Shown in pieces: positions 1,146 through 37,347 of a DNA stretch of 64,000 bases. Below the pieces are notes generated by a model. It did no database searches. It saw only the letters and a program-made list of their open reading frames with translations, and was not told the DNA's origin. Position 1 is the first letter of the stretch, and each line of letters opens with the position of its first letter. The DNA is from Alphaproteobacteria bacterium (lineage in GTDB: Bacteria > Pseudomonadota > Alphaproteobacteria > Caulobacterales > Hyphomonadaceae), in contig JAAANZ010000095.1 of the NCBI GenBank assembly GCA_009909065.1, positions 1 to 64,000 of the forward strand, in the 5' to 3' direction. A program made the position numbers and the translations under genes.

Positions 1146-1202
1146 TGCGAAACCTGCCTAGCATGAATGCCGCGGCGCGTGGACCGGCCGGCATCTGTGT
1201 GG

Positions 1203-2213: not shown

Positions 2214-2291
2214 TCGCTGGGGCTCCGCATTTGTTCCGGTTCGCGCATCTTCGCGCTTTTCGATGCCCTGAACCCCGTATATATCGCCGGG

Positions 2292-4097: not shown

Positions 4098-4139
4098 GCC
4101 CGGCGCACGGCCGGCCGGCCCGTCAAACGCTTCGCCCGG

Positions 4140-4619
4140 TCACCCCTGACAGGACCGGCACAGGCCGCGCGCCTCGATCACGGCGCGGTGCAGCCGGAAG
4201 CCGGCCGCCTCGGTCTCGGCCTTCAGGGCCTGCGTGGTGGTGACCGAATGGAGCTCCTCGGCCCCGCCGCACGTCTCGCAGATCAGGAAGATGGCGGAAT
4301 GCTTGTGGCTGGCATGGCCGCAGGCGACATAGGCGTTGAGGCTCTCGATCTTGTGGGCCAGGCCCAGCTCCTGGAGGAAATCCAGCGCGCGATAAATGGT
4401 CGGCGGCTTGGCCGATCCCTCGCCGTCGAGCTGACCGATCAGATCATAGGCCTTGGCCGGTTCGCGACTCTCGATCAGCAGCGACAGCACCTTGCGACGA
4501 ATCTTCGTCATCCGCTGACCGTGGGCCTCGGCGACCTCCTCGGCCACTTTCAGGAAGGCATCGTGCTCCTGCGGGCTGCAGGGCCGATTGGCACGGGTTT
4601 GGGCCTCAAGCTCTGTCAT
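4140..4619 (-). CDS. Fur-family transcriptional regulator, Zur-like
   Basis: The 159-aa protein has a winged helix at about residues 30-90, including the recognition-helix-like stretch TIYRALDFLQELGL, then a metal-binding dimerisation domain with CGHASHKH, C114-x2-C117 and C154-x2-C157. The paired CxxC structural zinc site and the length match Zur-type zinc regulators better than Fur proper, but subfamily assignment needs a tree. The start at 4619 is preferred because GAGG lies about 6 nt upstream; the open frame continues 46 codons further without family similarity. No zinc transporter gene is adjacent in this window, so its target genes lie elsewhere. Confidence 0.88.
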   Translation of the reverse strand: MTELEAQTRANRPCSPQEHDAFLKVAEEVAEAHGQRMTKIRRKVLSLLIESREPAKAYDLIGQLDGEGSAKPPTIYRALDFLQELGLAHKIESLNAYVACGHASHKHSAIFLICETCGGAEELHSVTTTQALKAETEAAGFRLHRAVIEARGLCRSCQG

Positions 4620-4789
4620 GTCCTCTATTTCGCCTCCCTTGCGGCGAAATGAAAGGGGTAATACCAAGCTTAAGGGATCCCCATTGGTCGATGCAGCGCG
4701 GGGCAAGCGAGACTGCACACCGGCACTTATGCGCCGAACGCGCAGATGCGTCCCCATCCGCGCCGATGGGCGTAAGCGGCCAAGCCGGC

Positions 4790-9316: not shown

Positions 9317-9362
9317 GTCGCGCCCTTTCACTTGGGGCCTGGGAGATGTCTTGCTCATGGTG

Positions 9363-9737
9363 TCAGGCCAGTCTTGCGCCGTTCGGAAGGGCGTCGTCTG
9401 GCCCCACAAGGCAGATTGCGCCAGCGTCATCAGCCGCGCCGAGGGTGAGAACTTCCGATCTGAAAGATCCGATCTGGCGCGCCGGGAAGTTGATCACAGC
9501 CATCACCTGACGCCCGATCAGGTCGTCATGCACGTAGCGTTCAGTGATCTGTGCGACGCTCTTTCTCTCGCCCACGCCTTCGCCGAAATCGATGACGAGC
9601 TTCATTGAGGGTTTGCGCAGGCCGTCGAGCGGCGCGGCGCTGCGAACCGTCCCGACGCGGATATCCAGCTTCAGGAAGGTGTCAAATTCAGTCTCGGGGG
9701 CGGGCGGCGCCGACGCCTCGAATGCCATATGGGTCAT
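9363..9737 (-). CDS. CsaA-type tRNA-binding domain protein
   Basis: The 124-aa protein is a stand-alone EMAPII/Trbp111-like OB-fold domain (FLKLDIRVGTV, then VNFPARQIG-type strands). It is related to Bacillus CsaA and the C-terminal domain of some aminoacyl-tRNA synthetases. Such proteins bind tRNA or act as chaperones; the bacterial physiological role is not settled. The ATG at 9737 has GGAG 6 nt upstream, inside the end of gltD, and lies only 3 nt past the gltD stop, so it is translationally coupled. It sits between the two glutamate synthase subunit genes on the same strand, which is unusual enough to note. Confidence 0.85.
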   Translation of the reverse strand: MTHMAFEASAPPAPETEFDTFLKLDIRVGTVRSAAPLDGLRKPSMKLVIDFGEGVGERKSVAQITERYVHDDLIGRQVMAVINFPARQIGSFRSEVLTLGAADDAGAICLVGPDDALPNGARLA

Positions 9738-9740
9738 GGT

Positions 9741-11195
9741 CTACTCCGCTGCCACCAGCGGCTTTGCTTCGGAGGGCGCTTCCGCGGCCATGTGGCGGTG
9801 CATCGCCTCGGCCGCGTCGCGCCCGTCACGGATTGCCCAGACGACCAGCGAAGCGCCGCGCACGATGTCACCGGCGGCGAACACGCCCTTGATCCCTGTT
9901 TCCATCGTTTTGAAATCGATCCGCACCGCGCCCCAGCGATTGACGGTCAGGCCCGGCTCCTCGAACAGGGCGGGCAGGTCTTCGGGGTCAAAGCCGAGTG
10001 CCTTGATCACGAGGTCGGCCTTCACATCGAAACTCTCACCGGTCTTTTCCGGGCTCTGGCGGCCGGAGGCATCGGGCGTGCCGAGCTTCATGCGCGAGGC
10101 GCGCACGGCTTTCAGCTTGCCGGCTTTCGTGTCCAGAACGGCTTCGGGCGCGGCCAGCCATTCGAATTTCACGCCCTCTTCCTCGGCATTGGTGACCTCG
10201 CGCTGGGAGCCGGGCATGTTGGCCCGGTCCCGGCGATAGAGGCAGGTGACGGATTTCGCGCCCTGGCGTACGGCCGTGCGCACACAGTCCATCGCCGTAT
10301 CGCCGCCACCAATGACGACCGTGCGCTTGCCGTCTGCATCAAGGTGGCCGCTGTCATGTTCCGGCACGCTGTCGCCAAAGCCCTTGCGGTTGGACGCGGT
10401 GAGATAGTCGAGCGCGGCGACCACGCTGTCATGGCCCACGCCCGGCAGTTTCAGGTCGCGCGCCTTGTAAACGCCGGTGGCAATGAGGACACTGTCATGG
10501 CGGGTGCGCAGTTCGCGCAGGGTGACATCCTCGCCGACATTGCAATCGAATTCGAACGCGATGCCGCTGTCCTCGAGCCGCTTGATGCGCCGCTCGACAA
10601 TCTCCTTTTCCAGCTTGAAGCCGGGAATGCCGTAGACGAGCAGGCCGCCGCCGCGGTCATAACGGTCATAGACGGTGACCTGATAGCCTTTGCGACGCAG
10701 CTGTTCGGCCGCGGCGAGGCCGGCCGGCCCGGCGCCGATGATCCCGGCGGACTGGTCGCGCTCACGCGGCGGGCGGATCGGCTCGACCCATCCCTGTTCC
10801 CAGGCATGGTCGGTGATGTGCTTTTCGACCGCGCCGATGGTCACGGTGCCATGGCCGGACTGCTCGATCGTGCAGATTCCCTCGCACAGGCGGTCCTGCG
10901 GGCAGATGCGCCCGCACACTTCCGGCATGTTATTGGTCGCGGCCGAGACGCGATAGGCTTCTTCCATCCGTCCCTCGGCGGCCAGCATCAGCCAGTCGGG
11001 GATATTGTTGTGCAGGGGGCAGCCCTGCTGACAAAACGGCACACCGCATTGCGAACAGCGCCCGGCCTGGTCGGCCACGGCTTCGGGCGAGTAGGCCTCA
11101 TAGATCTCGTCAAAATCCCTCGCACGCACCTCGACGCTGCGCTTGTCCGGCATCGCGCGTTCGACCCGCGTGAATTTGAGCATATTGTGGGCCAA
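9741..11195 (-). CDS. gltD: Glutamate synthase small subunit, NADPH-oxidising
   Basis: The about 484-aa protein supplies electrons from NADPH to GltB. The N-terminal cysteine clusters CSQCGVPFCQQGC and CGRICPQDRLCEGIC bind 4Fe-4S centres. FAD and NADPH Rossmann motifs follow (IIGAGPAGLAAAEQL and VVIGGGDTAMD). Start choice: AGGAG lies 8 nt before a TTG at 11195, whereas the ATG at 11183 is about 20 nt from it and the TTG at 11216 precedes it. The TTG at 11195 is therefore preferred, with the ATG at 11183 as the alternative. It is first in the operon gltD-csaA-gltB and divergent from uppP. Confidence 0.95.
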   Translation of the reverse strand: MAHNMLKFTRVERAMPDKRSVEVRARDFDEIYEAYSPEAVADQAGRCSQCGVPFCQQGCPLHNNIPDWLMLAAEGRMEEAYRVSAATNNMPEVCGRICPQDRLCEGICTIEQSGHGTVTIGAVEKHITDHAWEQGWVEPIRPPRERDQSAGIIGAGPAGLAAAEQLRRKGYQVTVYDRYDRGGGLLVYGIPGFKLEKEIVERRIKRLEDSGIAFEFDCNVGEDVTLRELRTRHDSVLIATGVYKARDLKLPGVGHDSVVAALDYLTASNRKGFGDSVPEHDSGHLDADGKRTVVIGGGDTAMDCVRTAVRQGAKSVTCLYRRDRANMPGSQREVTNAEEEGVKFEWLAAPEAVLDTKAGKLKAVRASRMKLGTPDASGRQSPEKTGESFDVKADLVIKALGFDPEDLPALFEEPGLTVNRWGAVRIDFKTMETGIKGVFAAGDIVRGASLVVWAIRDGRDAAEAMHRHMAAEAPSEAKPLVAAE

Positions 11196-11269
11196 GGCCA
11201 CGTCTCCTGAATTCAACCAAGCTTAATATAAGCGTTGCGCCGGGCCTACAGCAAGCGGGAAATGCCCTA

Positions 11270-11358
11270 AAAATATCGAAATGATACATTAAAATCTGAA
11301 AAACGCGGGATATTGGGAGGCTGAGCCCCACTCAATCCACTTAAAATATCGAAATGAT
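11270..11358. repeat. Pair of 16-bp direct repeats in the gltD/uppP intergenic region
   Basis: The sequence AAAATATCGAAATGAT occurs twice, at 11270-11285 and 11343-11358, exactly 73 bp apart, close to seven helical turns. The copies lie in an unusually AT-rich stretch between the divergent gltD and uppP genes, about 75 bp upstream of each start. The arrangement suggests two same-face binding sites for a regulator of one or both genes. The repeats are seen directly; the operator role is inferred. Confidence 0.6.
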
Positions 11359-11432
11359 GTTTGATTGTGTCCGGTTGCGTCTGGCGCGGATGTTGCCAAT
11401 AAGACTTGACCGACAAGCACAAGGCGCCCGGA

Positions 11433-12296
11433 ATGTCTCTCATACAGCTTATCATCATTTCCCTGGTGCAGGGCGTCACCGAGTGGCTGCCGATCTCCTC
11501 ATCGGGCCATGTCCTGCTCGCGGCCGGCTATTTCGGGCTTGAAGGTCGCGATGAACTGCTCATCAACGCCATGGCGCATCTTGGCACTCTGTTCGCCGTG
11601 CTCGCATATTTCTGGCGGGACATCCTTCGCGCCTTCTGGGGCGGGCTGGAACTCATCGGCATAGGCCGCGAGGCGGGCAATGCGCTGTCAGGCGAGGCGC
11701 GACTGGCGCTTTTCATACTCGCCGCGACACCCATTGCCGTGATCGCCGGCATTTTCCACGAGGCGTTCCTGCCGGCGGCCTGGCAGGGATGGATGCGCAG
11801 CGTCTGGACCGTGGCGGGCGCGACGATCCTCTTCGGCCTGGCCCTGTGGTGGGCCGATATGCGCGGGGGGCTGACGCGCCGCGAGGAGGACATGACGATG
11901 ACCCATGCCCTGCTGATCGGCGCGACACAGGCCATTGCCGCGCTGATCCCCGGCACCTCGCGTTCCGGCATCACCATGACGGCGGCGCGCGCGCTCGGTT
12001 ATGAGCGCACCGAGGCGGCGCGGTTCTCGATGCTGATCGGGGCGCCGCTCCTGGCCGCGGCGGGCGGATATGCGCTTGTCCAGCTGGCCACCGCCGCGCC
12101 GGCCCCCGGGGCGGTCGCGACCCTCTCGGACGGCCTCATCGTGGCGATCCTGTCCTTCCTGTCGGGTTTCGCCTCGATCTGGGCGCTGATGGCCCTCCTG
12201 AAGCGGATGAGCTTCCTGCCCTTCGTGATCTACCGCCTGGTCCTCGGACTTGTCTTGATACTTGCCAGCCCGGCAGCGCTCAGCATTTTCCGCTGA
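11433..12296 (+). CDS. uppP: Undecaprenyl-diphosphate phosphatase
   Basis: The 287-aa polytopic membrane protein (BacA family) dephosphorylates undecaprenyl pyrophosphate to recycle the lipid carrier for peptidoglycan and other envelope polymers. The two signature motifs are present: GVTEWLPISSSGH near the N-terminus and PGTSRSGIT in the middle, with about eight hydrophobic helices. The start at 11433 gives the family's usual MSLIQLIIISLVQG beginning and has AAGG about 8 nt upstream. A TTG 27 nt earlier is open but lacks support. It is divergent from the glutamate synthase operon, and the shared region carries the 16-bp direct repeats. Confidence 0.95.
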   Translation: MSLIQLIIISLVQGVTEWLPISSSGHVLLAAGYFGLEGRDELLINAMAHLGTLFAVLAYFWRDILRAFWGGLELIGIGREAGNALSGEARLALFILAATPIAVIAGIFHEAFLPAAWQGWMRSVWTVAGATILFGLALWWADMRGGLTRREEDMTMTHALLIGATQAIAALIPGTSRSGITMTAARALGYERTEAARFSMLIGAPLLAAAGGYALVQLATAAPAPGAVATLSDGLIVAILSFLSGFASIWALMALLKRMSFLPFVIYRLVLGLVLILASPAALSIFR

Positions 12297-12599
12297 GCAC
12301 GGCGCGGGAAGCGACGCGCAGCAAGGGATTCTCAAGAGCCCCCTTCCGCGCGCCGCCCCTCTCGCGGCGCGTCCCTCGCCTGCGAAGAGCCCTGTTTGAG
12401 TGTGAGTATTCGCTCGAATTAGGGCCGTGACGGGCGTGTAATGTGGCGATTTCATGGCATTCAATGACGATCAATTTATATACTTGTTGCCATAAGAATT
12501 GGCCGAGGTCCGGAGCCCCCGGGATCGATCACGGACGGAAAACGGCGCCAAACCGGTAATGAAAATCCTCCGGACGGGAGAGAAACGAAACACCGGCCT
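12297..12599. other. Intergenic region, no gene recognised
   Basis: This 303-bp gap separates the converging ends of uppP (+) and mnmC (-). It has an 8-bp GC-rich inverted repeat (12349-12356 with 12364-12371) but no T-run, so it is at best a weak terminator. An AT-rich patch around 12450-12500 could hold a promoter, but no coding frame with a ribosome site follows it. No small RNA or tRNA shape was recognised. Confidence 0.5.
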
Positions 12600-14453
12600 T
12601 CAGAGGGATCCGCGGCGAAACCCGCGCAACAGGAATCGCATTGCGCTGACACGTTCGCACGCCTCCCGGCTGGCCGGCGCCGGGTCCCCGCAGAGCTGCG
12701 CGGTCAGGAGGCCTGCGATCCAGGGCGCGAATGTGAAGCCGCGGCTGCCCAGGCCAGTGGCCAGCCATATGCCGGCCACCCGGGGCGCGTCTCCAGTGAT
12801 CTCGCGCCCGTGGCGCAGCCCGCCAAAACGTTCACGCGCAAGCTCCGGGTCCGGCAGCGGCCCGGCGACCGGCAACCGGTCCGGCGTGGTCGCGCGGATC
12901 CCTGCGCGCGAGACCGCAGGCCTGTCCAGAGCCTGTCGCATCCACCAGGGGGAAAGCCCTTCCAGCGCCGCGGCATTGCGGCTCCGCGCATCTTCACTGA
13001 TCCGCGGCGGGCCGTCATGCGCCTCGAATGTGGCGCCCCACAGGCGTTCACCGCCGAGCGCCAAGGCGTAATGCCCGCTTGCCGTCGCCGAGGGCGCGGC
13101 GTCGGGCAGGCCGGAAACGCTTTCCACCTGACCGAGGCGCGCTTCAAGCCCGAGGAACGGCGCCGCCTGTGCCGCGCCCATACCATGAGCGAGGATGATC
13201 GCATCGAAGGTTTCGCCCTCGATTTTCCGGGTGGCAAGGTCCGGCGCCGGATCGCGGCCATACCGCGTGTCGACGCCGTCAAGCAGCGCGCTGATCAGTC
13301 TTGCCGGCTCCACGATAAGGGCGCGCTTGTGCAGCAGCCCCCCGCCCGGCAGGGCTTCGAGATCCTCAAGAGGAAGCGGCGGATCGCCAAGCAGTTTACA
13401 AAATCGCCTGGCCTCCCGGTCATTTCGCGGCATCTGGCGCACCTGTGTCTCGCAAACGCCCGGCCGGCCGTCATAGGCGCGGCGCGCGGCCAGATAGGCA
13501 TCCACCAGAAGGCGCGCTTCGGGCGTGTCGCCCGCGTCGAGGCGCGGCATGACAAGGGCAAGCCGGTTCCCGCTCGCCCCTTGCGCGGGCCCCTTTGCGC
13601 GGTCGAACACGCTCACCTGGCATCCGCGAGCGACCAGCTGGCTGGCGAGCGACGCCCCGGCAATGCCGGCCCCCAGGACAGCGACCTTTTGCATCGGCTC
13701 GGGCGGGCTGCGCAGACCATGCCTGTCGGGCCGGCGGGGCTTTCCGGTCGGGCAGAGGTGCGCCTCGAGCCGCTCACGCTTGCGACCATGACCGGGACGC
13801 TTGGCCACCTCGAAGCCGGCCTCTCGCAGGCCACGGCGCACGTCGCCCGCCACTGTGAAAGTGGCCAGCCGTGCCCCCGGCGCCGCGCGCTCGGCCAGCA
13901 ACGGGTAAAGGGCCGGCGACCACATCTGCGCATTGCGCGCCGGTGAAAACCCGTCGAGGAACCAGGCATCGGCTTCCAGCATCGCCTGCGGCAGTGTTTC
14001 GGTGATCTCACCGACATGAAGCACCAGCCGGACACCGTCCTGTGGCCAGACAAGCTCGCGCACGCCGCGCGCGCCATCCGGCCAGTGGGATACAAGCTGT
14101 CCGGCGAGTTCCGCCAGCTCCGGCCAGGCTGAAAGCGCCCGGGCCGCATCGCTGGCGAGAAGGGGAAAGCCTTCGAAGCTGACAAAATTCAGCCAGGCCG
14201 ACGGCGACGGCCGCGACCGGCGCCAGAGCTGCCAGGTCGCAAGGAAGTTCAGCCCCGTGCCGAACCCCGTCTCGCCGACCGTGAAGCGTGTCCGTCCGAC
14301 CCAGCCGTCCGGCAGGCCGCAGCCAGCCAGGAAAACGGCCCGCGCTTCCTCCAGCCCATCCCCGGCCGTGAAATAAACGTCACCATGGCGCGTATCGATC
14401 GGCGTCCCATCGGGCTTCCAGTCCAGGGCGGGAGTTCGGGGAAGGCGTGGCAT
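12600..14453 (-). CDS. mnmC: Bifunctional tRNA mnm5s2U34 biosynthesis protein MnmC
   Basis: The 617-aa fusion protein finishes the wobble uridine modification of certain tRNAs. The N-terminal methyltransferase half carries an SAM motif GETGFGTG (residues 60-67) and converts nm5s2U to mnm5s2U. The C-terminal half is an FAD-dependent oxidoreductase with GAGIAG at 261-266, converting cmnm5s2U to nm5s2U. Length and domain order match the family. The start at 14453 (MPRLPRTPALDW) is preferred: a further in-frame start at 14546 would overlap the divergent recombinase gene. The only SD-like GGAG is about 13 nt upstream, so the start is moderately certain. Confidence 0.93.
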   Translation of the reverse strand: MPRLPRTPALDWKPDGTPIDTRHGDVYFTAGDGLEEARAVFLAGCGLPDGWVGRTRFTVGETGFGTGLNFLATWQLWRRSRPSPSAWLNFVSFEGFPLLASDAARALSAWPELAELAGQLVSHWPDGARGVRELVWPQDGVRLVLHVGEITETLPQAMLEADAWFLDGFSPARNAQMWSPALYPLLAERAAPGARLATFTVAGDVRRGLREAGFEVAKRPGHGRKRERLEAHLCPTGKPRRPDRHGLRSPPEPMQKVAVLGAGIAGASLASQLVARGCQVSVFDRAKGPAQGASGNRLALVMPRLDAGDTPEARLLVDAYLAARRAYDGRPGVCETQVRQMPRNDREARRFCKLLGDPPLPLEDLEALPGGGLLHKRALIVEPARLISALLDGVDTRYGRDPAPDLATRKIEGETFDAIILAHGMGAAQAAPFLGLEARLGQVESVSGLPDAAPSATASGHYALALGGERLWGATFEAHDGPPRISEDARSRNAAALEGLSPWWMRQALDRPAVSRAGIRATTPDRLPVAGPLPDPELARERFGGLRHGREITGDAPRVAGIWLATGLGSRGFTFAPWIAGLLTAQLCGDPAPASREACERVSAMRFLLRGFRRGSL

Positions 14454-14545
14454 GGCGAGATTCTGGCTCCCGGCGGCAATGGGAAGGGACCCGGATGACG
14501 GGCCCGGGGCCAGGCGGCGAACACCCGGCCGGGCCCTCGACACCA

Positions 14546-15478
14546 ATGATTAAACTCATGGCGCCAGACTTGGAAGCGATGGACCTTCTTGACGACTTTC
14601 TTGCCCATATCGGCCAGGCGCGCCGGTTGTCTCCGCACACTGTGGAGGCCTATCGCCATGACCTGTCGGCATTTCTCGGCTTCCTGACCGGGCATCTGGG
14701 CGACGCCCCGGATACAGCGGCGTTTGCCGGCCTCGGCGCGCGCGACATCCGCGCTTTCCTCGCCCGGCGCCGCGGTGAGGGCCTTTCGGACGGGTCGATT
14801 GCGCGCGCGCTTTCGGCGATCCGCACATTCTATGACTGGCTGGAGCGCGCTCACGGCGTTTCCAATGCCCAGATTGCCCTCATGGAGGGCCCGTCGCGGC
14901 CGGGCCGGCTGCCGCGGCCGGTCTCCCTGCCGGCCGCGAAAGAGCTCATTGACCGAGCCGAGGCGGGCGATCAGCCGGCCTGGGTCGGCGCGCGCGATGG
15001 CGCCTTGCTCCTCATGCTCTACGGAGCGGGGCTGCGCATTTCCGAGGCGCTGTCCCTGACCGGGCGCGACCTGCCGGCGCCGGAACGCCTGCGCATTCGC
15101 GGCAAGGGCGACAAGGTGCGGATTGTCCCGCTGATTCCGACCGTGCGCGAGGCGCTCGATACCTATGGAGCGCTCGTGCCGTTTCATGTTCCGGACGAGG
15201 AGCCACTCTTCCGTGGACTGAGGGGCGGCCCGCTCCGCCCACGGATCATTCAGCGCAAACTGCAGCAGCTTCGCGGCGCACTTGGTCTGCCGGATACGGC
15301 GACGCCGCATGCGCTACGCCATGCCTTTGCCACGCATCTTCTGGCCAATGGGGCCGATCTGCGCGCGATTCAGGCATTGCTCGGTCATGCCAGCCTCTCT
15401 ACGACACAGGTTTACACCGGTGTGGATGGCGCACATCTCAGTGCGGTTCACGCCTCGGCCCATCCGCGGGGCAACTGA
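14546..15478 (+). CDS. xerC: Tyrosine recombinase XerC
   Basis: The 310-aa site-specific recombinase resolves chromosome dimers at dif together with XerD. The N-terminal SAM-like core-binding domain is followed by the catalytic domain with the full set: R164 (AGLRISE), K187 (RGKGDK), H255-x2-R258 (HALRHAF), H281 (LLGHASL) and nucleophile Y290 (TQVYTGV). The HALRHAFATHLL style suits XerC rather than XerD, but without the paralog this is not final. In-frame ATGs at 14546, 14558 and 14579 are all possible and none has a strong ribosome site. It starts 92 nt from the divergent mnmC. There is no adjacent mobile DNA, so it is the housekeeping enzyme. Confidence 0.92.
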   Translation: MIKLMAPDLEAMDLLDDFLAHIGQARRLSPHTVEAYRHDLSAFLGFLTGHLGDAPDTAAFAGLGARDIRAFLARRRGEGLSDGSIARALSAIRTFYDWLERAHGVSNAQIALMEGPSRPGRLPRPVSLPAAKELIDRAEAGDQPAWVGARDGALLLMLYGAGLRISEALSLTGRDLPAPERLRIRGKGDKVRIVPLIPTVREALDTYGALVPFHVPDEEPLFRGLRGGPLRPRIIQRKLQQLRGALGLPDTATPHALRHAFATHLLANGADLRAIQALLGHASLSTTQVYTGVDGAHLSAVHASAHPRGN

Positions 15479-15505
15479 GCGCGGTCTTGCCGGTCTGGAA
15501 GGGAC

Positions 15506-15539
15506 GCGGCCGGCTCACCCGGAAGGGGCGGCCGGCCGC
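15506..15539. repeat. GC-rich hairpin downstream of xerC
   Basis: A perfect 9-bp inverted repeat (GCGGCCGGC at 15506-15514, GCCGGCCGC at 15531-15539) lies between the converging xerC and CAP-domain genes. There is no T-run on either side, so a rho-independent terminator is only a weak possibility. Confidence 0.35.
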
Positions 15540-15614
15540 GGGACATGACGCAAGGCATGCGGGTCAACTGAGGGGAAGAGCACATGCCTCAGGAGCCATG
15601 TCGTCTGTATGGCT

Positions 15615-16457
15615 CTATTGCGCGGAAACGCTCGGACCTTTCAGCGAATAGACCGCCGTGCCGCGCCGCGCTTCAAGCGTGAGGTGGCCCGCCTGGCCGG
15701 CCAGGCGCGCCCGATAAAGCCGCGGCGCCAGTCCGCGGGCCAGCTGGCGGCCCTCGGAGTCCTCGATGCGCCAGCCCTCCAGCCGGAATGCCGGATCGGC
15801 GAATTCGACCGGGATCGGCGTCATGGCCGGCAGATCTACCGGCAAGGGCGCCGCAAGCTCGCCATCGACCCGGGAAAAGACCTGCACCGCATAGAGACGG
15901 CCATTGCCTTGCGCCAGGCCGAAGCCGGTATGCGTAAAGGCGTCCCGGAAGAGATTGTTCCGGCTCGTCTCGTCAGCGATGAGCGCATTGTAGATGTCCG
16001 GCGCGCTGCCATCGGCTTCAATCACCGTGATGTTCGCACCGCTCGCGCCGAAGACGAGCTGGCGACCCATGGCGCGGATCCGGTCTTCATGCCCGCGCCC
16101 TTCGAGGTCCTCATGAGCGGCATAGCCGCGCGCCGCCATATCGAGGGCATGCATCTGCGCGGCCGCATCCAGGCTGACATGCCGGATCTGCGGCGCCAGC
16201 GCGTTCTTCTCTCGCATCCGCTGGGTCAGACGATGCACATCCTCGGCCTTTGCCTCAAGGCCGCTCTCGGCGCGTTGATCCAGGCAGGCATTCGCCTCGG
16301 CAACGAAACCGGCAAGGTCTCCGGCATAGCCATCATCGAGCTCACATGCGCTTGCGGGCACCGGTTCGGCACTGTCTGCGCTGGCTGTGATCGGGGTCGC
16401 CAGTGCCGCGAAGGCCAGCACCGAAATCGACCAATGTTTGTCATAAAACTGTAACAT
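15615..16457 (-). CDS. CAP (SCP/PR1-like) domain secreted protein
   Basis: The 280-aa protein has an N-terminal signal sequence (about residues 1-27, cleavage near ITASADS) and a bacterial CAP/SCP-like domain: DVHRLTQRMREKNAL, the helix around AAAQMHALDMAARGYAAHE, and FTHTGFGLAQGNGRLYAVQVFS at the end of the fold. The region after about residue 205 is not recognised. Bacterial CAP proteins are exported; some bind lipids or matrix polymers, but the function is mostly unknown. The ATG at 16457 lies within an 18-bp inverted repeat (separate entry), suggesting control at or near the start. No operon partner. Confidence 0.85.
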   Translation of the reverse strand: MLQFYDKHWSISVLAFAALATPITASADSAEPVPASACELDDGYAGDLAGFVAEANACLDQRAESGLEAKAEDVHRLTQRMREKNALAPQIRHVSLDAAAQMHALDMAARGYAAHEDLEGRGHEDRIRAMGRQLVFGASGANITVIEADGSAPDIYNALIADETSRNNLFRDAFTHTGFGLAQGNGRLYAVQVFSRVDGELAAPLPVDLPAMTPIPVEFADPAFRLEGWRIEDSEGRQLARGLAPRLYRARLAGQAGHLTLEARRGTAVYSLKGPSVSAQ

Positions 16458-22143: not shown

Positions 22144-22623
22144 TCAGGCAGCCGAGACATTTGACGTGGTCGGACAGAGAATGGCGCACACCTCTTCATG
22201 CGTTGACACCTCGCGCAACTTGTCACGAATACTCGACTGGCGCAGCGCCCGGCTGACCTGGGCCAGCGCCCGAAGATGATCGGCCCCGGACGCCAGCGGT
22301 GCCAGCAGCATGAAGACGATATCGCAGGGGCGCTCGTCAATCGCGTCGAAATCGACGCCTTCCTTTAGACGCAGATAGGCGCCGATGGGAGCGCTGACCT
22401 GTTTCAGGCGCGCATGGGGGATCGCCACACCGTCGCCAACGCCGGTGGACCCGAGTTGCTCACGTTCCATGACCGCATCGACGATCTCGCGCGCACTCAC
22501 GGTTTCCCCGAGCTTGCCGGCCAGCGCCTCGGCCAGAAGCAGGATAGCCTGCTTGCGGCTCGAAGCGTCGGCAAGTGGGAGAATCACCCCGCCATTCAAC
22601 AGGGAAGAAAGATCGATAGCCAT
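22144..22623 (-). CDS. ptsN: PTS IIA-like nitrogen regulatory protein
   Basis: The 159-aa EIIA-Ntr protein carries phosphoryl-accepting histidine H70 in GVAIPHAR and a typical mannitol/fructose IIA fold. It is the end of the nitrogen phosphotransferase relay (PtsP-NPr-EIIA-Ntr), which tunes potassium and nitrogen homeostasis. The start MAIDLSSLLNGGVILPL at 22623 matches the family; the open frame continues 27 codons upstream without similarity. It lies 34 nt after hpf in the conserved rpoN-hpf-ptsN order. Confidence 0.95.
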   Translation of the reverse strand: MAIDLSSLLNGGVILPLADASSRKQAILLLAEALAGKLGETVSAREIVDAVMEREQLGSTGVGDGVAIPHARLKQVSAPIGAYLRLKEGVDFDAIDERPCDIVFMLLAPLASGADHLRALAQVSRALRQSSIRDKLREVSTHEEVCAILCPTTSNVSAA

Positions 22624-30151: not shown

Positions 30152-32194
30152 ATGGCGACAAGGAGCAATAGTCAGTCCCGCCCCGGGGCCTCACGGCGCC
30201 GGAGCGGTGCTTTGGGCAAGGTAAGGGATGTGCCGATCGGCGTTCTGGTCGGGCTTGGGATATTCGCCATTCTTCTCGCGCTCGCCGGCTGGCTCGTGGT
30301 GCTTGGCCCACAGGAAACCGGCCTTGGCCGGGTCGAGGAGGCGCTTTACCGCGCCATATCGGTCAACACGCTGTCGGAAATCTATTCCCGGCCCATAAGC
30401 GTCCAGGCCGATAACCCGCCGCCACCGGCTTACGGTATCGTTTTGCTCATGACGGCCCGCTGGGTGGGCGTTGTGGTCTTTTTCCTGACACTGGCCACGG
30501 TGGTGTTACGCCTTTTCTCGCAGAATCTTCTGACCTGGCGCGCACGGACCCGGTTCAGCCATCATATCGTCATCATCGGCGATCGTGAATTTGCCCGCCG
30601 GACGGCCGAGGAGGCCGTGCACAAGGGGCTTGAAGTGGTCCATTTCACGCCGGGTGGCCAGGAACTGGTGCGCGACGGCATCCTGACGCTCGACAGCGAT
30701 ATGGGCCTTTCGGAAATGCTGCGCCTGTCAGCGGCCCACAGGGCGCGCTCGGTCGTCTTTGCCCTTGAAGACAATGCCGAGAGCGCCAGCCTTGCTCGCC
30801 AGGTTTTCGACATGCCGGGTTTTTCCGCGGCTGCCGAACGCGCCCTCGGCCCGCACCTGTTCGTCTTCGTTGATGATGACTGGTTCGAACACCGCGAGGA
30901 GCTCAATTACGCCTTCCACAAGCTCGGCGATGTCGGTGATGTGGCCAATGACGGGCGACCTGACAGCGTGGTCGAGATTATTTCCGAAAGCCGCTGCGCC
31001 GCGCGCGCCGTATTGGGCGCGCATCCGCTTTTCACGCTTCAGGAAGGCGGCCTACAGCACACGCTGCTGGTCGGTTTCGGGGCCATGGGCGAGGCGTTGC
31101 TGACGGAGATCTGCGAGACACAGCGCGTCGATCCCGATCGCAGGCAGCATATCACGGTAATCGACCCTGACCCGGCGAGCTGGGAGCGGTTCGAGCGTCG
31201 CTGCCCGTATTGGCGCAGCGTTTTCGACGGAGAATTCCTCCCCCGCCGGCTCGACGGACTGGGGGAGGATGTCGGGCCGTTTCTCGATCGCCTGCGCGCG
31301 GCGCCGCTCACCGCGGCCTTCGTGGCGACCGGCGAGAGGGAAAATTCGACCATGAATGCTGCGCGCCTGAAACAGATCCTCGACAAGCATGCCGATGAGG
31401 GACGCCTGCCGGAAAGGGATCTGTGCTTTCCCATCTTTACCTGTGAGCGCGGCGGGGCCGGCGGCGCCGCGCTGCCGGCCCACAGGCAGGTGGAAGCGCT
31501 CGCCGGCGGCAGCGTGATGGAACGCCTGGCGATCATCCCCTTCGGCTCCTGGCGGGAAGTCGTGTCCGCCTCGCGCGTCCTGGAGGAAAAGCCCGATAGC
31601 GCCGCCTTCCTCATCCACTCGGTGCATAACGCGCTCTACAGTGATGATAAGCCCACGAACTGGAGCTGCGTGCCCGAGGTCAATAGATACTCCAGCCGCT
31701 CGGCCGCCAATTTCGTGCCTGCCCTCATCCATGCGGCGGGCTATGACCTCGGCGCCTGGCTGGCCGAAAGCGCGCCTGAACCGCCGAGCGTGAACCATCT
31801 TCCCCGGATCGCGCCGGGCCATGTGCTGGCCGAGGGCGCAAGCGAACTGGTCTATCTCGCGCGCCTGGAGCATGCCCGCTGGTGCGCCGAGCGCTGGCTT
31901 CGCGGTTTCCGTTTCGACACGGTCAAGGACAAGGAACGCAAGCGTCATCCCGACCTCGTGGCCTTCGAGGCGCTGCCCGACCGCGCGCGCACCTACAATA
32001 TCCGCTATATCGCGGAGCTTTCCAGCTGGCTGCTGCCTCAGGCGGGCGGCGCGCTTGCCGGTCCGCGGAAAGGCGCCCGGCGGATCATCATGAGGCCGAG
32101 CGACATGGGCCGGATGGCCGCGGCCGACCTGCCCGTTCGCGATCATGACGCTGATCGTGTCATCGATACCGAAAAGGACATGGAAGATGCCTGA
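30152..32194 (+). CDS. Two-TM RCK-like membrane protein with C-terminal RyR domain (gene A)
   Basis: The 680-aa protein has two TM helices (about 28-52 and 95-121) joined by a periplasmic loop with a pore-helix-like stretch (EEALYRAISVNT) but no TVGYG-type selectivity filter. Two RCK/TrkA-N-like Rossmann domains follow: about 136-290 (IVIIGDREFARR, nucleotide loop degenerate) and about 302-470 (LLVGFGAMGEA, intact GFGAMG at 308-313). A RyR domain lies at about 565-617 (LARLEHARWCAERW, then KDKERKRHPDLV and RARTYN). It is likely a membrane-anchored sensor of a ligand or nucleotide. GGGGA precedes the start by 7 nt. Its last 8 nt overlap gene B. Domain calls are from sequence memory; the function is inferred. 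Confidence 0.85.
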   Translation: MATRSNSQSRPGASRRRSGALGKVRDVPIGVLVGLGIFAILLALAGWLVVLGPQETGLGRVEEALYRAISVNTLSEIYSRPISVQADNPPPPAYGIVLLMTARWVGVVVFFLTLATVVLRLFSQNLLTWRARTRFSHHIVIIGDREFARRTAEEAVHKGLEVVHFTPGGQELVRDGILTLDSDMGLSEMLRLSAAHRARSVVFALEDNAESASLARQVFDMPGFSAAAERALGPHLFVFVDDDWFEHREELNYAFHKLGDVGDVANDGRPDSVVEIISESRCAARAVLGAHPLFTLQEGGLQHTLLVGFGAMGEALLTEICETQRVDPDRRQHITVIDPDPASWERFERRCPYWRSVFDGEFLPRRLDGLGEDVGPFLDRLRAAPLTAAFVATGERENSTMNAARLKQILDKHADEGRLPERDLCFPIFTCERGGAGGAALPAHRQVEALAGGSVMERLAIIPFGSWREVVSASRVLEEKPDSAAFLIHSVHNALYSDDKPTNWSCVPEVNRYSSRSAANFVPALIHAAGYDLGAWLAESAPEPPSVNHLPRIAPGHVLAEGASELVYLARLEHARWCAERWLRGFRFDTVKDKERKRHPDLVAFEALPDRARTYNIRYIAELSSWLLPQAGGALAGPRKGARRIIMRPSDMGRMAAADLPVRDHDADRVIDTEKDMEDA

Positions 32195-33953
32195 CAAAGC
32201 GGCGCGGATCCCGGGTGAGGACGCCAGCCTTGTCCGCCTTGACGGCACGGATGCCCCGGTCTTCACGCCCGGCGAGACCTATATATCGATCGTGATCCGG
32301 CGGATCAGCCTGAAACACGGGCGCGGCGGGCTGCGCAAATACGGGCCTTATGTCTATGGCGTCCTTGGACAGACCAGTTTCGACGAGCCCATCGAGCTGG
32401 CCGGCGTTTTTTCGCCGGCCCGTGAAGAGGATATTTTCGCGGGCGCCTCGCTCGTGCCCGGCTCACAGGTCGGCGCGCCGGTCGGCCAGGTCGAGGTCCG
32501 GCCCGGCCTTGGCCCGATGCAGGCCGAGAGCTTTCGCCGACTCGACCCGATGGTCCTGGTCGATCGCCAGCTTACCCCGCGCATGGTCTATCACGGGGCC
32601 GGCCCGATCGAGATCGGCTTCGGCGCGGTGCAGCAAAAGGACCCGCTCGCCGATACGCTCGGCCTGATCGAGGAAGTCGTCAAGTCACCGGTGGCGCAGT
32701 TCGTTTCGGCCATCGTGCCGCCCCTCGGCGCGCTAGCGGGCGCGGATCTCACCGGCACGGTGCGCCGGCTTTTCGGGCGCCTGGAACATGAAAAGGGCAC
32801 TGAAAGGCTCGCGGTGATCTCCACGAACCTTTCGGAACTCATGGGTGGGGACGGACAGCTGCATGCCGGCACATATGCCCTGATCGCCGGGCGGGGACAG
32901 GCAGCCGGCCTGCAGTTCGACGAAAAGCGCAAGACGATTGTCGATGCCCAGGGCCGGGAGTTTGTCGATGCGCCCTATGTGGCCTTCGACCTGCAATGTG
33001 AAACCACACGCCCGGACTGGGGCAGTGTGCCGGATGTCAATTCCGCCTGGCGCGCGCTGGAGGCCGAGGCGACGGACGGCGATCCGGCGCAGGCGCTGGA
33101 GGCGTTCCGCCGCGCGGTCTATCTCTCGCCCGACCTGGTGCCGGAGGATGGCCGGCGACTTCAAAAGGCCGCCCGGCGCAAGATCTCGCCCCTGCTCAGC
33201 GGCGCGGAATTCTTCCATATCCCGAAGCTCGGGCGTATCGGCGAGGCGCTCAAATCGACCTATGACGAGGTGATGGCCAGCGAAGTGGGCCGCGCGCGCG
33301 ACGAATGGGACCGTTTTCATCGCTGCCATGAGGTCATGCGGATCAATGAAGGCGGTTATGTCGATCATCCCGACGATCCCGGCGGGGCGACGAACAAGGG
33401 CGTGACGCAGCGCACTTATGAGGCCTGGCGGCGGCGCCAGGGCCTGCCGGCGCGCCATGTGCGCGATATCAGCGAGCCCGAAGTGCTTCAGATCTATTTC
33501 GAGGGCTATTGGCGGGCGGGCCATTGCCATCGCATGCCGGGCGATGCCGCCGCGCTCGTCCTGTTCGATGCCTGCGTCAATCACGGGCTGAGGCCGGCGA
33601 TGAAATTCATCCAGCGCGGGGCCGGCCTGCCGCCGCGCGAGGTCGACGGGCTGTTCGGTCCGCGCACCCTGCGCGCGGTCCAGTCGAGCGATCCGACCCT
33701 TCTGATTCAGCGTGCGCTCGATGCGCGCTGGCACTTTTTCGAAAAGATCATGCGGCGCAATCCGCGGCTGGAGAGTTTCCGCGGCGGCTGGCGCGCCCGG
33801 GTGGACCGGATGCGCGGTGTCGCCCGCAGTTGGCTGACCGGCCAGGAAAGTGCGGTGGCGCCGCTTCCCGTGCTGAAACCGGAAGGGATCACGCCGCCGG
33901 TGCTCAGGGGGATTTCCGGAGCCAGCGCCGCAGCGGGGGAGCCAGGCGAATGA
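32187..33953 (+). CDS. GH108 muramidase with unrecognised N-terminal region (gene B)
   Basis: The 588-aa protein has a C-terminal half matching GH108 N-acetylmuramidases of phage-endolysin or secretion-activator type: E388 in NEGGYVDHPDDPGGATNKG is the expected catalytic acid, followed by the helical core to about 470 and a peptidoglycan-binding-3 region at about 478-545 (VDGLFGPRTLRAVQ). Residues 1 to about 275 form a beta-rich domain not recognised. Residues 280-330 look helical, TPR-like (AQALEAFRRAVYLSPDLVPEDGRRLQ). There is no signal peptide or TM helix, so the lysin would be held in the cytosol unless exported another way. AAGGA lies 8 nt before the ATG, inside gene A. It overlaps gene C by ATGA. 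Confidence 0.85.
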   Translation: MPDKAARIPGEDASLVRLDGTDAPVFTPGETYISIVIRRISLKHGRGGLRKYGPYVYGVLGQTSFDEPIELAGVFSPAREEDIFAGASLVPGSQVGAPVGQVEVRPGLGPMQAESFRRLDPMVLVDRQLTPRMVYHGAGPIEIGFGAVQQKDPLADTLGLIEEVVKSPVAQFVSAIVPPLGALAGADLTGTVRRLFGRLEHEKGTERLAVISTNLSELMGGDGQLHAGTYALIAGRGQAAGLQFDEKRKTIVDAQGREFVDAPYVAFDLQCETTRPDWGSVPDVNSAWRALEAEATDGDPAQALEAFRRAVYLSPDLVPEDGRRLQKAARRKISPLLSGAEFFHIPKLGRIGEALKSTYDEVMASEVGRARDEWDRFHRCHEVMRINEGGYVDHPDDPGGATNKGVTQRTYEAWRRRQGLPARHVRDISEPEVLQIYFEGYWRAGHCHRMPGDAAALVLFDACVNHGLRPAMKFIQRGAGLPPREVDGLFGPRTLRAVQSSDPTLLIQRALDARWHFFEKIMRRNPRLESFRGGWRARVDRMRGVARSWLTGQESAVAPLPVLKPEGITPPVLRGISGASAAAGEPGE

Positions 33954-36900
33954 CTATCGACACCATGATCGACCCGGCCGAGGAGCGTCGTGAATTCGAA
34001 GCGGCGCGCAGCGCTGTCATGATGCTCGGGCGCGAGCAGTCTCGGCTGGATTCCATCGAGACCGTGGCGCGGCTGGTCAGCGAGGCCGACGATCTCGGAG
34101 CGGAGGGCGCCGAGGAACTCTTCAATATTGCCAAGGCCCTGCAGAAGCGCCGGGCTTTCGCCCTCTTGCTGGTCCTGTGCCTGCTCGCGCGCCAGTCGGG
34201 GCTGGGCTCGGCGAAGCTCCGGCAGCGCGAAGTCCAGGCGCTGATCGAGCTGGGCCGGCTTGAGGAGGCGGTGCGCGCGGCGCGCGCACTTGCCGGGGCC
34301 ACGGCGTCGGCTGCACCGGACGACCCTCAAGCGAAAGAGGATTACGAGCTCTGGGAGGCGGCCAATGGAAATATCGGGCGGGCCTACAAGCAGGCCTATG
34401 TCAATGCGAGCCGGTCGCCGGACGCGCCGCCCCGACCGGATCCGCAGGATTTGAAAGCCGCGTTCGATACGTATTTCAGCGTCTGGGAACGCAACCCCGG
34501 CCCCTCGACCACTTACCATGCCATCAATGCGGCCGCGCTGATGATGCGAGGCGTGCGCGATGAGGCCCTTGGCCGTCCGGGCGACTTTTCCTGGGTCGAC
34601 CGCGAGAAGGCGCGCGAGCTGGCCGAGGCGATATTGCGCATCCATGAGGAGGATCTGCGCGGCGCTCTCTCGCCGGGCGGGGGTGGCGGCACCGATGTCT
34701 GGACACTGGCCACCTGCGGGGAGGCTTATCTCGTCCTCGACCTGATGGACGATGCGGCGCTGTGCTACGGCGCCTATGCCGGGCTCAGCACGGCGGATGC
34801 GTTCGAAATCGGCTCGTCATTGCGCCAGTTGCAGGAGGTCTGGCAGTTCGAGGGCGGCAACCAGGATGCCGGCGGCAGGTTGGTGCGCCTCCTGAAGACG
34901 GCGCTGATAAATCTCCAGACAGCCTCGGGCGGCCCGCCTGCCAATGACATCCAGACCGACAGCGTCGTTCTCAGCCCGACCGAGGCCGGATTGATCCAGC
35001 GCGAGCTGGAGGAAAGATCCGGCGCGGAGGCCGACGGGCCGGATGGCTATGAGGCCTATTTCGACAAGCGCGGCTCCACGCGCACCGAAGGCCGCATGAT
35101 GGATATTCAGCGGATCAGCGGGGCCTTGCGCCGCGCGCAGAGTATCTGTGCGATCGAAGCGCTCTGCGACGGCGAATGGCAGCGCATGGGAACCGGTTTC
35201 CTGGTGCGTGGCGAGGCGCTGCACGCGGCCTGGGCCGGTGAGACGCTGATTGTCAGCAACCATCATGTCGTCAGCCAGATGGATGGGGCCCTGTCGAGTT
35301 CCTATCGGCGCTGCCGTGCGAATTTCATCGAGTATGACCCCGTGATGCAGGCGGAAAGGGAGTCTCCGGTCCTGTTCGAGGGCGTGCTCTGGCGATCGGG
35401 CGAGCGCGCTCATGACGTGGCGGTGATCAGGCCGCGCACGGCCCTGCCAAGGGCGGCCCTGCCGCTGGAGCCTCATGACGTGTCACCCTATTTGCCACCG
35501 CGCCCGCATCTCGGCATGGATGGCACGAACATGCATGTCGTGATTCTCGGCTTTCCCGGCGGGGGCGATCTCAGCTTTTCCTATGGTGACGAATTGCTGC
35601 TCGACCATGACGCCTGCGATCCGGGCGTTGCCCCCGACCCCGACCGGACGCCGCAGGGCCGGCCGGTGCGCCTGCATTACCGCACGCCGAGCCAGCCGGG
35701 CAGCTCGGGCAGTCCCGTCTTCCGGGCCGGCGACTGGAGCCTTGTCGGCGTTCACCATCGCGGCCAGCCCGATTGCCGCCGGCTGGCTCCGCGGGACGGC
35801 ACGTATGAGGCGAATGAAGGCATCTGGCTGCCCTCGATCATTGCCGCGATCGGCAAGGCCAGCCTGACCGCCGGTGAGGGCGCGCCGACACAGGCCGATC
35901 CGCAATCGCCGGATGACACGCCTCAGGCCCCCTCGCCGCAGGGTGAATGGCTCACGCTGCCGGCCTCCGCCTATGGAGCCGTGCAGGGGGTTTTCTCTGA
36001 TGGCGCCGCGACGCAGGCGCCGCAGGCGGATGAGCATCGCGGGGCGCCGGCCGGGGGCAATATGGTCTTCGGGCGCAGGATCGGCCCGCCGCCGGAACCG
36101 GCCGCGCCCCCCGCCCCGGCCATGCCTTCGAAACTGGAGATTCCCGGCCGCGCGGTTGTCATGCCCCAGGACTCCCCGGAAATCTTTCATCGCCACTTGC
36201 GGACCGGGAAATTCCATGGCGACCTGGAGACGTTTCGCCTCAAGACTCAGGGTTTCGAAACCGTCATAGGGGACGACAACCGCACCCAGATCCATGAAAC
36301 GGCCAGCGATCCCTTCCGGATGATCTGCTCGCTGACGGTTCACTGGGCGAACATGGCGCCGACGGCGGGGACGGGTTTCCTGATCGGCCAGCGCATTCTC
36401 CTGACAGCCGGCCATTGCGTGTTGCCGGGGCCGGGCTATCCCGACCCGACAGCGATCGAGATCCGTCCCGGTCGGGCCGGGCCGCGAGAGCCTTTCGCCG
36501 AAGATCTCGGCCTCGTGCATGCCGAGCGGATCTCGCTGCACGCAAACTGGTCGAATGGCTTCGATCCGCGCTTCGATGTGGGTGCGATTCACCTGAACAC
36601 GGCCATCGGCGAGGCCCTTGGCTGGTTCCGGGTCGGTGTGCGCAGCCCTGATGAATTGCGCCGGCGCTGGGCTCATGTGACGGGATATCCCGGCGACAAG
36701 ATCACGCCGCTGGCCTCGGGCGAGGAGCTGTATGCCGCCGAACAGTGGCACCATGCCACGCCCATAAGCGAGGTCCATGACGGGCGTGTGTACTATCCGG
36801 CCGACACGTTTGCCGGCCAGAGCGGGGCGCCCGTCTATATCCTGGAGGAAGACGGACGCCCGACTGTTGTCGGTGTCCACGCATACGGGACGGGACCAAA

Positions 36901-36991
36901 TGCTGGCCAGCTCGCCATGGAAAACAATTCGGCGGCCTGGATCGATCCGGCTATGTTGCAGGTCATTTCCGACTGGAGGAGCATTGCATGA
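33950..36991 (+). CDS. TRAFs-binding/TPR-like protein with two trypsin-like protease domains (gene C)
   Basis: The 1013-aa protein has a helical N-terminal region (about 15-320) resembling the MAP3K TRAFs-binding/DUF4071 family (NIGRAYKQAY, TTYHAINAAALMM, VWTLATCGEAYLVLDLMDDAALCYGAYAGL). A first S1-type protease domain follows at about 385-635 with H439 (SNHHVV), D489 (HDVAVI) and S586 (GSSGSP). A proline-rich linker spans about 640-735. A second, V8-like protease domain at about 785-1010 has H822 (TAGHCV), D876 (FDVGAIHL) and S958 (GQSGAP). Both triads look intact. No signal peptide, so it is cytosolic. GGGGAG lies 8 nt before the ATG at 33950; the frame is open earlier but overlaps gene B. 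It ends in an ATGA overlap with gene D. Confidence 0.88.
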   Translation: MTIDTMIDPAEERREFEAARSAVMMLGREQSRLDSIETVARLVSEADDLGAEGAEELFNIAKALQKRRAFALLLVLCLLARQSGLGSAKLRQREVQALIELGRLEEAVRAARALAGATASAAPDDPQAKEDYELWEAANGNIGRAYKQAYVNASRSPDAPPRPDPQDLKAAFDTYFSVWERNPGPSTTYHAINAAALMMRGVRDEALGRPGDFSWVDREKARELAEAILRIHEEDLRGALSPGGGGGTDVWTLATCGEAYLVLDLMDDAALCYGAYAGLSTADAFEIGSSLRQLQEVWQFEGGNQDAGGRLVRLLKTALINLQTASGGPPANDIQTDSVVLSPTEAGLIQRELEERSGAEADGPDGYEAYFDKRGSTRTEGRMMDIQRISGALRRAQSICAIEALCDGEWQRMGTGFLVRGEALHAAWAGETLIVSNHHVVSQMDGALSSSYRRCRANFIEYDPVMQAERESPVLFEGVLWRSGERAHDVAVIRPRTALPRAALPLEPHDVSPYLPPRPHLGMDGTNMHVVILGFPGGGDLSFSYGDELLLDHDACDPGVAPDPDRTPQGRPVRLHYRTPSQPGSSGSPVFRAGDWSLVGVHHRGQPDCRRLAPRDGTYEANEGIWLPSIIAAIGKASLTAGEGAPTQADPQSPDDTPQAPSPQGEWLTLPASAYGAVQGVFSDGAATQAPQADEHRGAPAGGNMVFGRRIGPPPEPAAPPAPAMPSKLEIPGRAVVMPQDSPEIFHRHLRTGKFHGDLETFRLKTQGFETVIGDDNRTQIHETASDPFRMICSLTVHWANMAPTAGTGFLIGQRILLTAGHCVLPGPGYPDPTAIEIRPGRAGPREPFAEDLGLVHAERISLHANWSNGFDPRFDVGAIHLNTAIGEALGWFRVGVRSPDELRRRWAHVTGYPGDKITPLASGEELYAAEQWHHATPISEVHDGRVYYPADTFAGQSGAPVYILEEDGRPTVVGVHAYGTGPNAGQLAMENNSAAWIDPAMLQVISDWRSIA

Positions 36992-37347
36992 GCCGGACAA
37001 TCGATGAGGCGCGCGTGATGGCGATATCGCGCACCGTGCACGAGGCCGTGCGCGCCTGGGCAGCCGCACATGGACAGGATGGCATTCCCCACTGGAACCG
37101 GGCGCCGGCATGGATGAAGGAATCCACGCGCGAAAGCGTCGAATTCACCCTCGCCCATCCCGAAGCGCCGGACAGTTCCCAGCATGACCAGTGGATGGCG
37201 CAGAAACAGCGCGACGGCTGGGTCTGGGGCCAGGTCAAGGATCCTGCGAAAAAGACCCATCCGATGCTGGTCTCCTATGAACAGCTGCCGGACATGGAGA
37301 AACGCAAGGATGCCCTGTTCAAGGCGATCGTCCAGGCCCTCGCCTGA
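36988..37347 (+). CDS. Stand-alone RyR domain protein (gene D)
   Basis: The 119-aa protein is almost entirely one ryanodine-receptor-type RyR repeat (about 60-118): HDQWMAQKQRDGWVWG, then VKDPAKKTHPMLVSYEQLP and KRKDALFKAIVQAL. Residues 1-55 add a helical cap (WAAAHGQDGIPHWNRAPAWMKEST). Bacterial RyR domains are thought to bind small ligands or proteins; the exact ligand is unknown. GGAGGAG lies 6 nt upstream of the ATG, inside gene C, the best ribosome site of the operon. A second RyR domain ends gene A, so both ends of the operon carry the same module. Confidence 0.9.
   Translation: MSRTIDEARVMAISRTVHEAVRAWAAAHGQDGIPHWNRAPAWMKESTRESVEFTLAHPEAPDSSQHDQWMAQKQRDGWVWGQVKDPAKKTHPMLVSYEQLPDMEKRKDALFKAIVQALA

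Follow-up and report, generated by a model that had tools for sequence, protein, structure and literature searches.

The window of this study, a stretch of 64,000 nucleotides from a MAG of the Hyphomonadaceae (Caulobacterales), carries four intact genes on the + strand, here called A, B, C and D. The overlaps of A/B, B/C and C/D are 8, 4 and 4 nt, respectively, and a purine-rich Shine–Dalgarno-like stretch lies upstream of each of the four starts, as in AAGGA ahead of B and GGAGGAG ahead of D. Coordinates, strand and overlaps agree exactly with a preliminary description of this DNA. Scanning for an operon promoter and terminator gave a result near chance. The features of the locus are:

30152..32194, + strand: gene A, 680 aa, two TM helices, an RCK/Rossmann-like region and a C-terminal RyR domain
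31856..32020, + strand: RyR domain of A; H574, W577 and H599 are kept, and the catalytic Asp of phage RyDEP is Asn616 in the window's genus
32187..33953, + strand: gene B, 588 aa, BND, GH108 muramidase and PG_binding_3
32205..33176, + strand: BND, our label for the unnamed N-terminal domain of B, without Pfam match
33309..33818, + strand: GH108 and PG_binding_3 of B; E388 is kept in 9/10 homologues
33950..36991, + strand: gene C, 1013 aa, TPR-S, trypsin-1 and trypsin-2
35123..35869, + strand: trypsin-1 of C, relative of V8, Spl and glutamyl endopeptidases; H439, D489, S586; S/T at the 190-equivalent and H602 at the 213-equivalent position
36257..36259, + strand: codon of E770, P1 of the predicted zymogen site GFE/TVIGDD (slash, cut); E in 8/8 homologues
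36260..36979, + strand: trypsin-2 of C, nearest solved relative Bacillus glutamyl endopeptidase 1p3c; H822, D876, S958, T953, H977
36988..37347, + strand: gene D, 119 aa, lone RyR protein; H66, W69, H91 and D108 equal the RyDEP residues at the same spacing

The window copy lies between egtBD and a clpB-like gene. The expectation of a surrounding defence island is not borne out here, as no recognised one is found around the locus. PADLOC gives no strong system-model match for A–D. Its weak protease cross-matches, like the weak NCBIfam cross-matches, were rejected as a source for a system name.

Proteins encoded by the four genes

D consists of a single RyR domain (Pfam RyR, 1.3e-10, 41.8 bits against a cut-off of 27.4), as had been described. 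The phage RyR protein RyDEP, of the anti-Thoeris kind, hydrolyses the immune signals 2'/3'cADPR and thereby destroys them, some of its relatives sequester them, and its residues H75, W78, H100 and D117 bind or act on 2'/3'cADPR (2026 preprint, PMC13232231). The equivalent residues of D are H66, W69, H91 and D108 with identical spacing (+3, +25, +42), and this HWHD set is present in 25/25 D proteins despite their moderate overall identity. From these residues, D probably binds or hydrolyses the signal and resets the system. In contrast to the phage proteins, D is chromosomal and belongs to a candidate module of defence-like character in the host; its role would accordingly be that of an off-switch and not of viral evasion. 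Full-length relatives of D are found in 274 phage records, e.g. MN850581.1 at 22161-22505. Among the listed ones, the annotation is often hypothetical protein, and one match, in Erythrobacter phage XM05, falls under a gene that bears the name minor head protein.

The second RyR domain is the C-terminal part of A (Pfam RyR, 4e-7), for which TrkA_N stays below threshold. The K+ channels GsuK and MthK are the best PDB matches of the fold model of A (pLDDT about 68), and GsuK is an NAD/ADP-binding channel. Like these RCK channels, A is modelled with a pair of TM helices and, after them, RCK-like Rossmann domains, which agrees with the reading as a two-TM RCK-like protein with a C-terminal RyR domain. 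Unlike them, it carries the added RyR domain and lacks the K+ selectivity filter: no TVGYG-type motif (GYG/GFG) occurs between TM1 and TM2 in the window protein and five homologues checked. A pore in A is putative, and one guess is that A may have a holin-like role. Low-scoring matches of A to LPD7, EPS_sugtrans and WcaJ were rejected as look-alikes. Among the RyDEP-type residues of the A family, the first His is kept throughout and a single member lacks the W. Some genera have Arg in place of the second His, and Asn replaces the catalytic Asp in no genus other than that of the window. Divergent homologues of A adjoin a D-Ala-D-Ala carboxypeptidase and an SBF transporter at one locus (L138, 9317-13939) and a 671-aa TIR protein at another (L130, 8417-12342).

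B was described as an unsecreted GH108 muramidase with a novel N-terminus, and we arrive at the same assignment. Pfam recognises GH108 (2.5e-25) and PG_binding_3 (7e-11), and the protein belongs to GH108 by its domain with the catalytic Glu and its C-terminal PG_binding_3. No Pfam family matches the N-terminal ~330 aa (BND), and no signal peptide or TM segment is seen by hydropathy. In a fold model of moderate confidence (pLDDT about 68), the GH108 part resembles Brucella SagA and other GH108 proteins, with SagA and TtsA among the best matches. BND shows a weak C2-like beta-sandwich similarity, and its assignment as a C2 domain was dropped since the best C2 match, at E 0.14, is too weak. One homologue of B (L027) has lost the GH108 catalytic region. 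At a locus of another alphaproteobacterial family (L090, 8456-10550), the C-terminus of a BND protein reads PFESLG, and the neighbouring protein has a protease-like GDSG motif.

C had been read as a TRAFs-binding-like protein with two intact trypsin triads. The triads stand, whereas the N-terminal part is Pfam TPR-S (3.5e-7); a secretion signal is not found in C. H439/D489/S586 of trypsin-1 is invariant in 14 aligned rows and H822/D876/S958 of trypsin-2 in 8. Trypsin-1 matches V8, Spl and glutamyl endopeptidases, and trypsin-2 matches the Bacillus glutamyl endopeptidase 1p3c with 2e-13. For the S1 pocket of glutamyl endopeptidases, the residues discussed are Thr/Ser190 and His213 (PMC5508998). 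At the 190-equivalent position, we find S/T in 14/14 trypsin-1 rows and T in 8/8 trypsin-2 rows; at the 213-equivalent position, H is present in 13/14 trypsin-1 rows (one alignment gap) and in 8/8 trypsin-2 rows. By these residues, both protease domains look like the glutamyl-endopeptidase type and are predicted to be Glu-specific.

In V8 and BIGEP, the new N-terminus that arises from processing completes the S1 pocket (PMC5508998). In the alignment to 1p3c, residue 772 of C pairs with chain residue 2, and thus residue 771 with residue 1. Just ahead of the position that aligns with the mature N-terminus of 1p3c lies E770, which in the sequence alignment is Glu in 8/8 two-protease homologues and is followed by Thr/Ser. 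A conserved Glu at this position would suit the requirements of a cascade that activates itself by cutting after Glu. Trypsin-1 shows no comparably clear N-terminal processing site.

Distribution and modular exchange

Among 101 genomes, the window's own and 100 relatives, 13 contain a match to C. Complete A-B-C-D sets are found in the window, in two genomes of the same genus and in five genomes of two other genera. The set lies far beyond chance, because homologous sets recur in other genomes. The suggestion that homologues of A–D co-occur elsewhere and with variation holds for at least three genera: the egtB/egtD flank is limited to the window's genus, the other genera carry the set elsewhere, and in their five genomes A is divergent from B-C-D. 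Across 398 genomes of the order, the core of C is present in 18, BND in 23 and both in 17, a co-occurrence with a Fisher value of 6e-24 when kinship is ignored. A single-protein scan of GTDB contigs with C returned no match, and an alignment-based BND scan returned seven loci. BND-only genes of other families (L068, L069) and weak matches (L070-L072) are excluded from the argument.

A and D also occur alone, as a divergent pair without B-C, in many genomes. Neither this separable pair nor the RyDEP-family key residues in D had been predicted in the preliminary description. A CoA-transferase III gene (75-92% identical) serves in one genus as landmark of a shared chromosomal site, at which four genomes carry D-C-B-A and four carry D-A without B-C. 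B-C acts as a cassette, since it is present or absent between A and D at one fixed chromosomal site. In one genome (L035, G034), A is intact and B and C are collapsed into one remnant reading frame.

B and C are also found fused. One chain consists of BND, GH108, TPR-S and trypsin (L033). In a second (L034), BND, TPR-S and trypsin are joined to a lysozyme-like end with weak Pfam support, and in four more (L032, L064-L066) to a PG-binding C-terminus. The effector is exchanged as well: in place of GH108 stands either a lysozyme-like domain, with weak matches at E 0.002-0.004, or a putative wall enzyme whose PG-binding part matches at 8e-4. Assignment of the L032-type C-terminus as an L,D-transpeptidase was rejected, as it has an SxGC hint without profile support and the PG-binding part alone is supported.

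The sensor position varies too. In several loci without A, its place is taken by a TIR or TIR-WD40 protein that has a single TM segment, and D is nearby. Genomes with the A-B-C-D set contain 8-25 TIR domains (median 17.5), and for 16 relatives that lack the set the median is 3; the difference is confounded by kinship. Within a TIR-WD40 version of the locus, a TIR-OmpA fusion joins a signalling and a peptidoglycan-binding domain (L065, 7558-8607). An island of ~16 kb (L109, G180, 214-16349) contains four TIR proteins, one of them TIR-nSTAND1-FGE, together with GH108, a TPR-S protease, an RyR protein and a phospholipase of the patatin type. On the Sinorhizobium plasmid pK101b, TIR, GH108, alpha/beta hydrolase, TPR-S protease and TIR are neighbours (L143, 1-12828), and the surroundings of this relative include an autotransporter gene. 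The hydrolase-protease pair is found alone on conjugative Agrobacterium plasmids (L144, L146).

Candidate Glu sites and a model of the cascade

We searched for Glu sites in linkers, defined as stretches outside the domains delimited by profiles. The narrower pattern G[FYL]E[SAG] shows no clear enrichment in ABCD-type B and C and is enriched in fusions and DUF1353 proteins only. After this result, the motif was widened to [FYLM]E[STAG] and limited to linkers, and we rely on this wider test. Linkers flanking the muramidase and the proteases contain 59 sites in 3880 aa, i.e. 15.2 per 1000 aa versus 3.3 in domains. Shuffled linkers, which keep composition and not phylogeny or ancestry, contain a mean of 18.3 sites, and 0/1000 shuffles reach 59. 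For representatives only, 26 linker sites compare with 8.5 after shuffling (0/1000). The shuffle result is descriptive and no clean prior test, because the motif was chosen after inspection of the same sequences. In the fusion L033, GFES sites flank GH108 on both sides and precede the protease, and GYEGL/GFESL sites do so in L109. B of the window carries GAEFF before and GQES after GH108, both of them weaker sites than those of GFESL type in the fused relatives. DUF1353-type proteins beside the protease gene (L031, L032, L063-L067) have one or two GLES/GLEA at the extreme N-terminus and may be further protease substrates.

Starting from the observed anatomy, modularity and motif enrichment of A-B-C-D, we infer signal, cleavage and lysis as follows. 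An adenine-nucleotide signal, probably of cADPR type and made by one of the many TIR proteins that ABCD genomes encode, would act on the RyR domain of A. That the operon itself contains no TIR gene counts against the mechanism, as do the weaker Glu sites in B of the window, the lost catalytic region of L027 and the position of the window copy outside a defence island. A would then be the receiver of a signal related to the one that D removes. A and/or the TPR-S region of C would change state, and trypsin-1 would become active. By the geometry of the residues, trypsin-1 could cut after E770, and the proposed cut would create the N-terminus that glutamyl endopeptidases need and so activate trypsin-2. 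C would next cut the Glu-containing linkers, in which sites are enriched, on both sides of GH108 in B. The freed muramidase would breach the wall, and the cell would lyse or stop growing. Passage of the muramidase to the periplasm, perhaps aided by A as a holin-like hole-maker, is the weakest link of the model. D, with its RyDEP residues, would bind or hydrolyse the signal and hold the system off at rest.

A chain from membrane sensor through protease to released muramidase had been proposed in the preliminary description. It gains partial support from the B-C fusions, the swaps of wall enzymes, the Glu-type proteases, the enrichment of Glu sites at domain borders and the replacement of A by TIR proteins. 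We consider it somewhat better than an even bet that A-B-C-D is a modular system for conflict or programmed lysis, with a wall hydrolase that is armed by a protease cascade under nucleotide control. Its most specific form is put forward tentatively: the RyR channel-like protein A would read a cADPR-type alarm, the RyDEP-like D would erase it, and a two-step glutamyl-endopeptidase cascade would free the peptidoglycan hydrolase for suicide at the wall.

The input step has a variant with a real chance of its own, though one well short of even. D could be a structural RyR module that owes its RyDEP residues to shared ancestry, and control could run through the RCK part of A with NAD/ADP instead of cADPR. 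Two findings suit this variant: in a test of eight phage RyDEP homologues, binding of the signal was seen for six and degradation for none (PMC13232231), and the phosphate-binding His is Arg in A of several genera. It accounts less well for four residues that stay invariant across the 25 moderately similar D proteins, and for D remaining beside TIR-type versions of the locus.

Related systems, alternatives and meaning

Proteolytic arming is known from bacterial immunity. In Hachiman/AVAST and caspase-nuclease (canu) loci, a trypsin-like protease cuts a partner proenzyme and unleashes it, and modules are swapped among sensors (PMC12799240). A-B-C-D shares with these nuclease-protease pairs a trypsin-like protease that would free its partner, and swapped modules (PMC12799240). 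Their effector is an MBL nuclease (PMC12799240), whereas A-B-C-D has a peptidoglycan hydrolase and other sensors. Hachiman cleavage occurs after Ile (PMC12799240), in contrast to the predicted Glu sites here. Kaur et al. (2020) described trypsin-NucA-EAD1 conflict systems with a predicted proteolytic cascade, in which wall enzymes of lysozyme-like or papain-like type form part of some EAD1 proteins (PMC7159879). These systems resemble A-B-C-D in the predicted cascade and the occasional wall enzymes. In contrast to them, A-B-C-D shows no NucA or EAD1 match and its protease bears TPR-S; RyR is absent from the text of that paper. The general kind of A-B-C-D was thus foreseen, as trypsin cascades with occasional lysozyme partners had been predicted by Kaur et al. 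In its TIR-WD40 versions, the module resembles Thoeris in combining a TIR protein with an effector arm that is separate from it. This arm is a protease with a wall hydrolase and not a ThsA homologue; as A–D include neither a TIR (ThsB) nor a ThsA-like protein, the set is not a Thoeris system. In the literature searched, which covered few subscription papers, we found no description of the A-B-C-D set, of its RyR coupling or of the Glu-site logic.

The closest parallel in the same bacterial order is LypABC of Caulobacter, a CARD-NLR-type immune-like operon that leads to lysis and whose lytic effector is not known (PMC13236601). Both are immune-like operons with trypsin-type peptidases and an outcome of cell lysis, predicted in the case of A-B-C-D (PMC13236601). 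A-B-C-D differs in having no CARD or STAND/NLR, in its own candidate lytic effector and in its RyR proteins; neither an ATPase nor a STAND domain is found in A–D by Pfam, NCBIfam or PADLOC. LypABC is essential for GTA lysis and lies outside a defence island (PMC13236601). Together with the endolysin-type muramidase of A-B-C-D, this speaks for programmed lysis in the cell's own interest, such as release of gene transfer agents, and not for defence. We regard this as improbable, though not negligibly so. The distribution is very patchy (about 17/398 genomes of the order), and A-B-C-D has no LypB-like STAND protein. RyR/TIR coupling, plasmid-borne relatives and the one TIR/STAND/patatin island copy fit conflict better.

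A role in envelope or ion homeostasis, with A-D as a nucleotide- or ion-responsive channel plus regulator and B-C as accessory wall remodelling without a death function, would draw on the fold of A, which is like that of NAD/ADP-binding GsuK, and on the many genomes with A-D alone. GH108 muramidases are also used in secretion and wall editing, and SagA and TtsA are among the top fold matches. Gain and loss of the B-C cassette, fusions, effector swaps, TIR replacement and decayed copies are unlike housekeeping, and make this role decidedly unlikely. That the muramidase is a weapon delivered outward against other cells or predators and processed by C during export is highly improbable, since B and C have no secretion signal and the loci hold neither a secretion apparatus nor a GH108-specific immunity gene, even though other bacteria use GH108 enzymes in the export of proteins, the structural matches include TtsA, and an autotransporter gene is close to the Sinorhizobium relative.

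If the model of a protease cascade under nucleotide control is true, bacteria arm a cell-wall hydrolase by site-specific proteolysis, just as gasdermins or nucleases are armed in other immune systems, and this arming is coupled to host-side RyR-domain proteins. The predicted cut sites, the catalytic residues and the natural pairs with and without B-C make the model directly testable. Chromosomal lone RyR proteins would gain a role, and phage RyDEP genes would be linked to a look-alike off-switch of the host. Whether cADPR acts on the RyR domains of channels, a long-standing question, would become testable in a small bacterial protein, and A-B-C-D would set a precedent in bacteria for an action of cADPR on the RyR domains of channels in the membrane.
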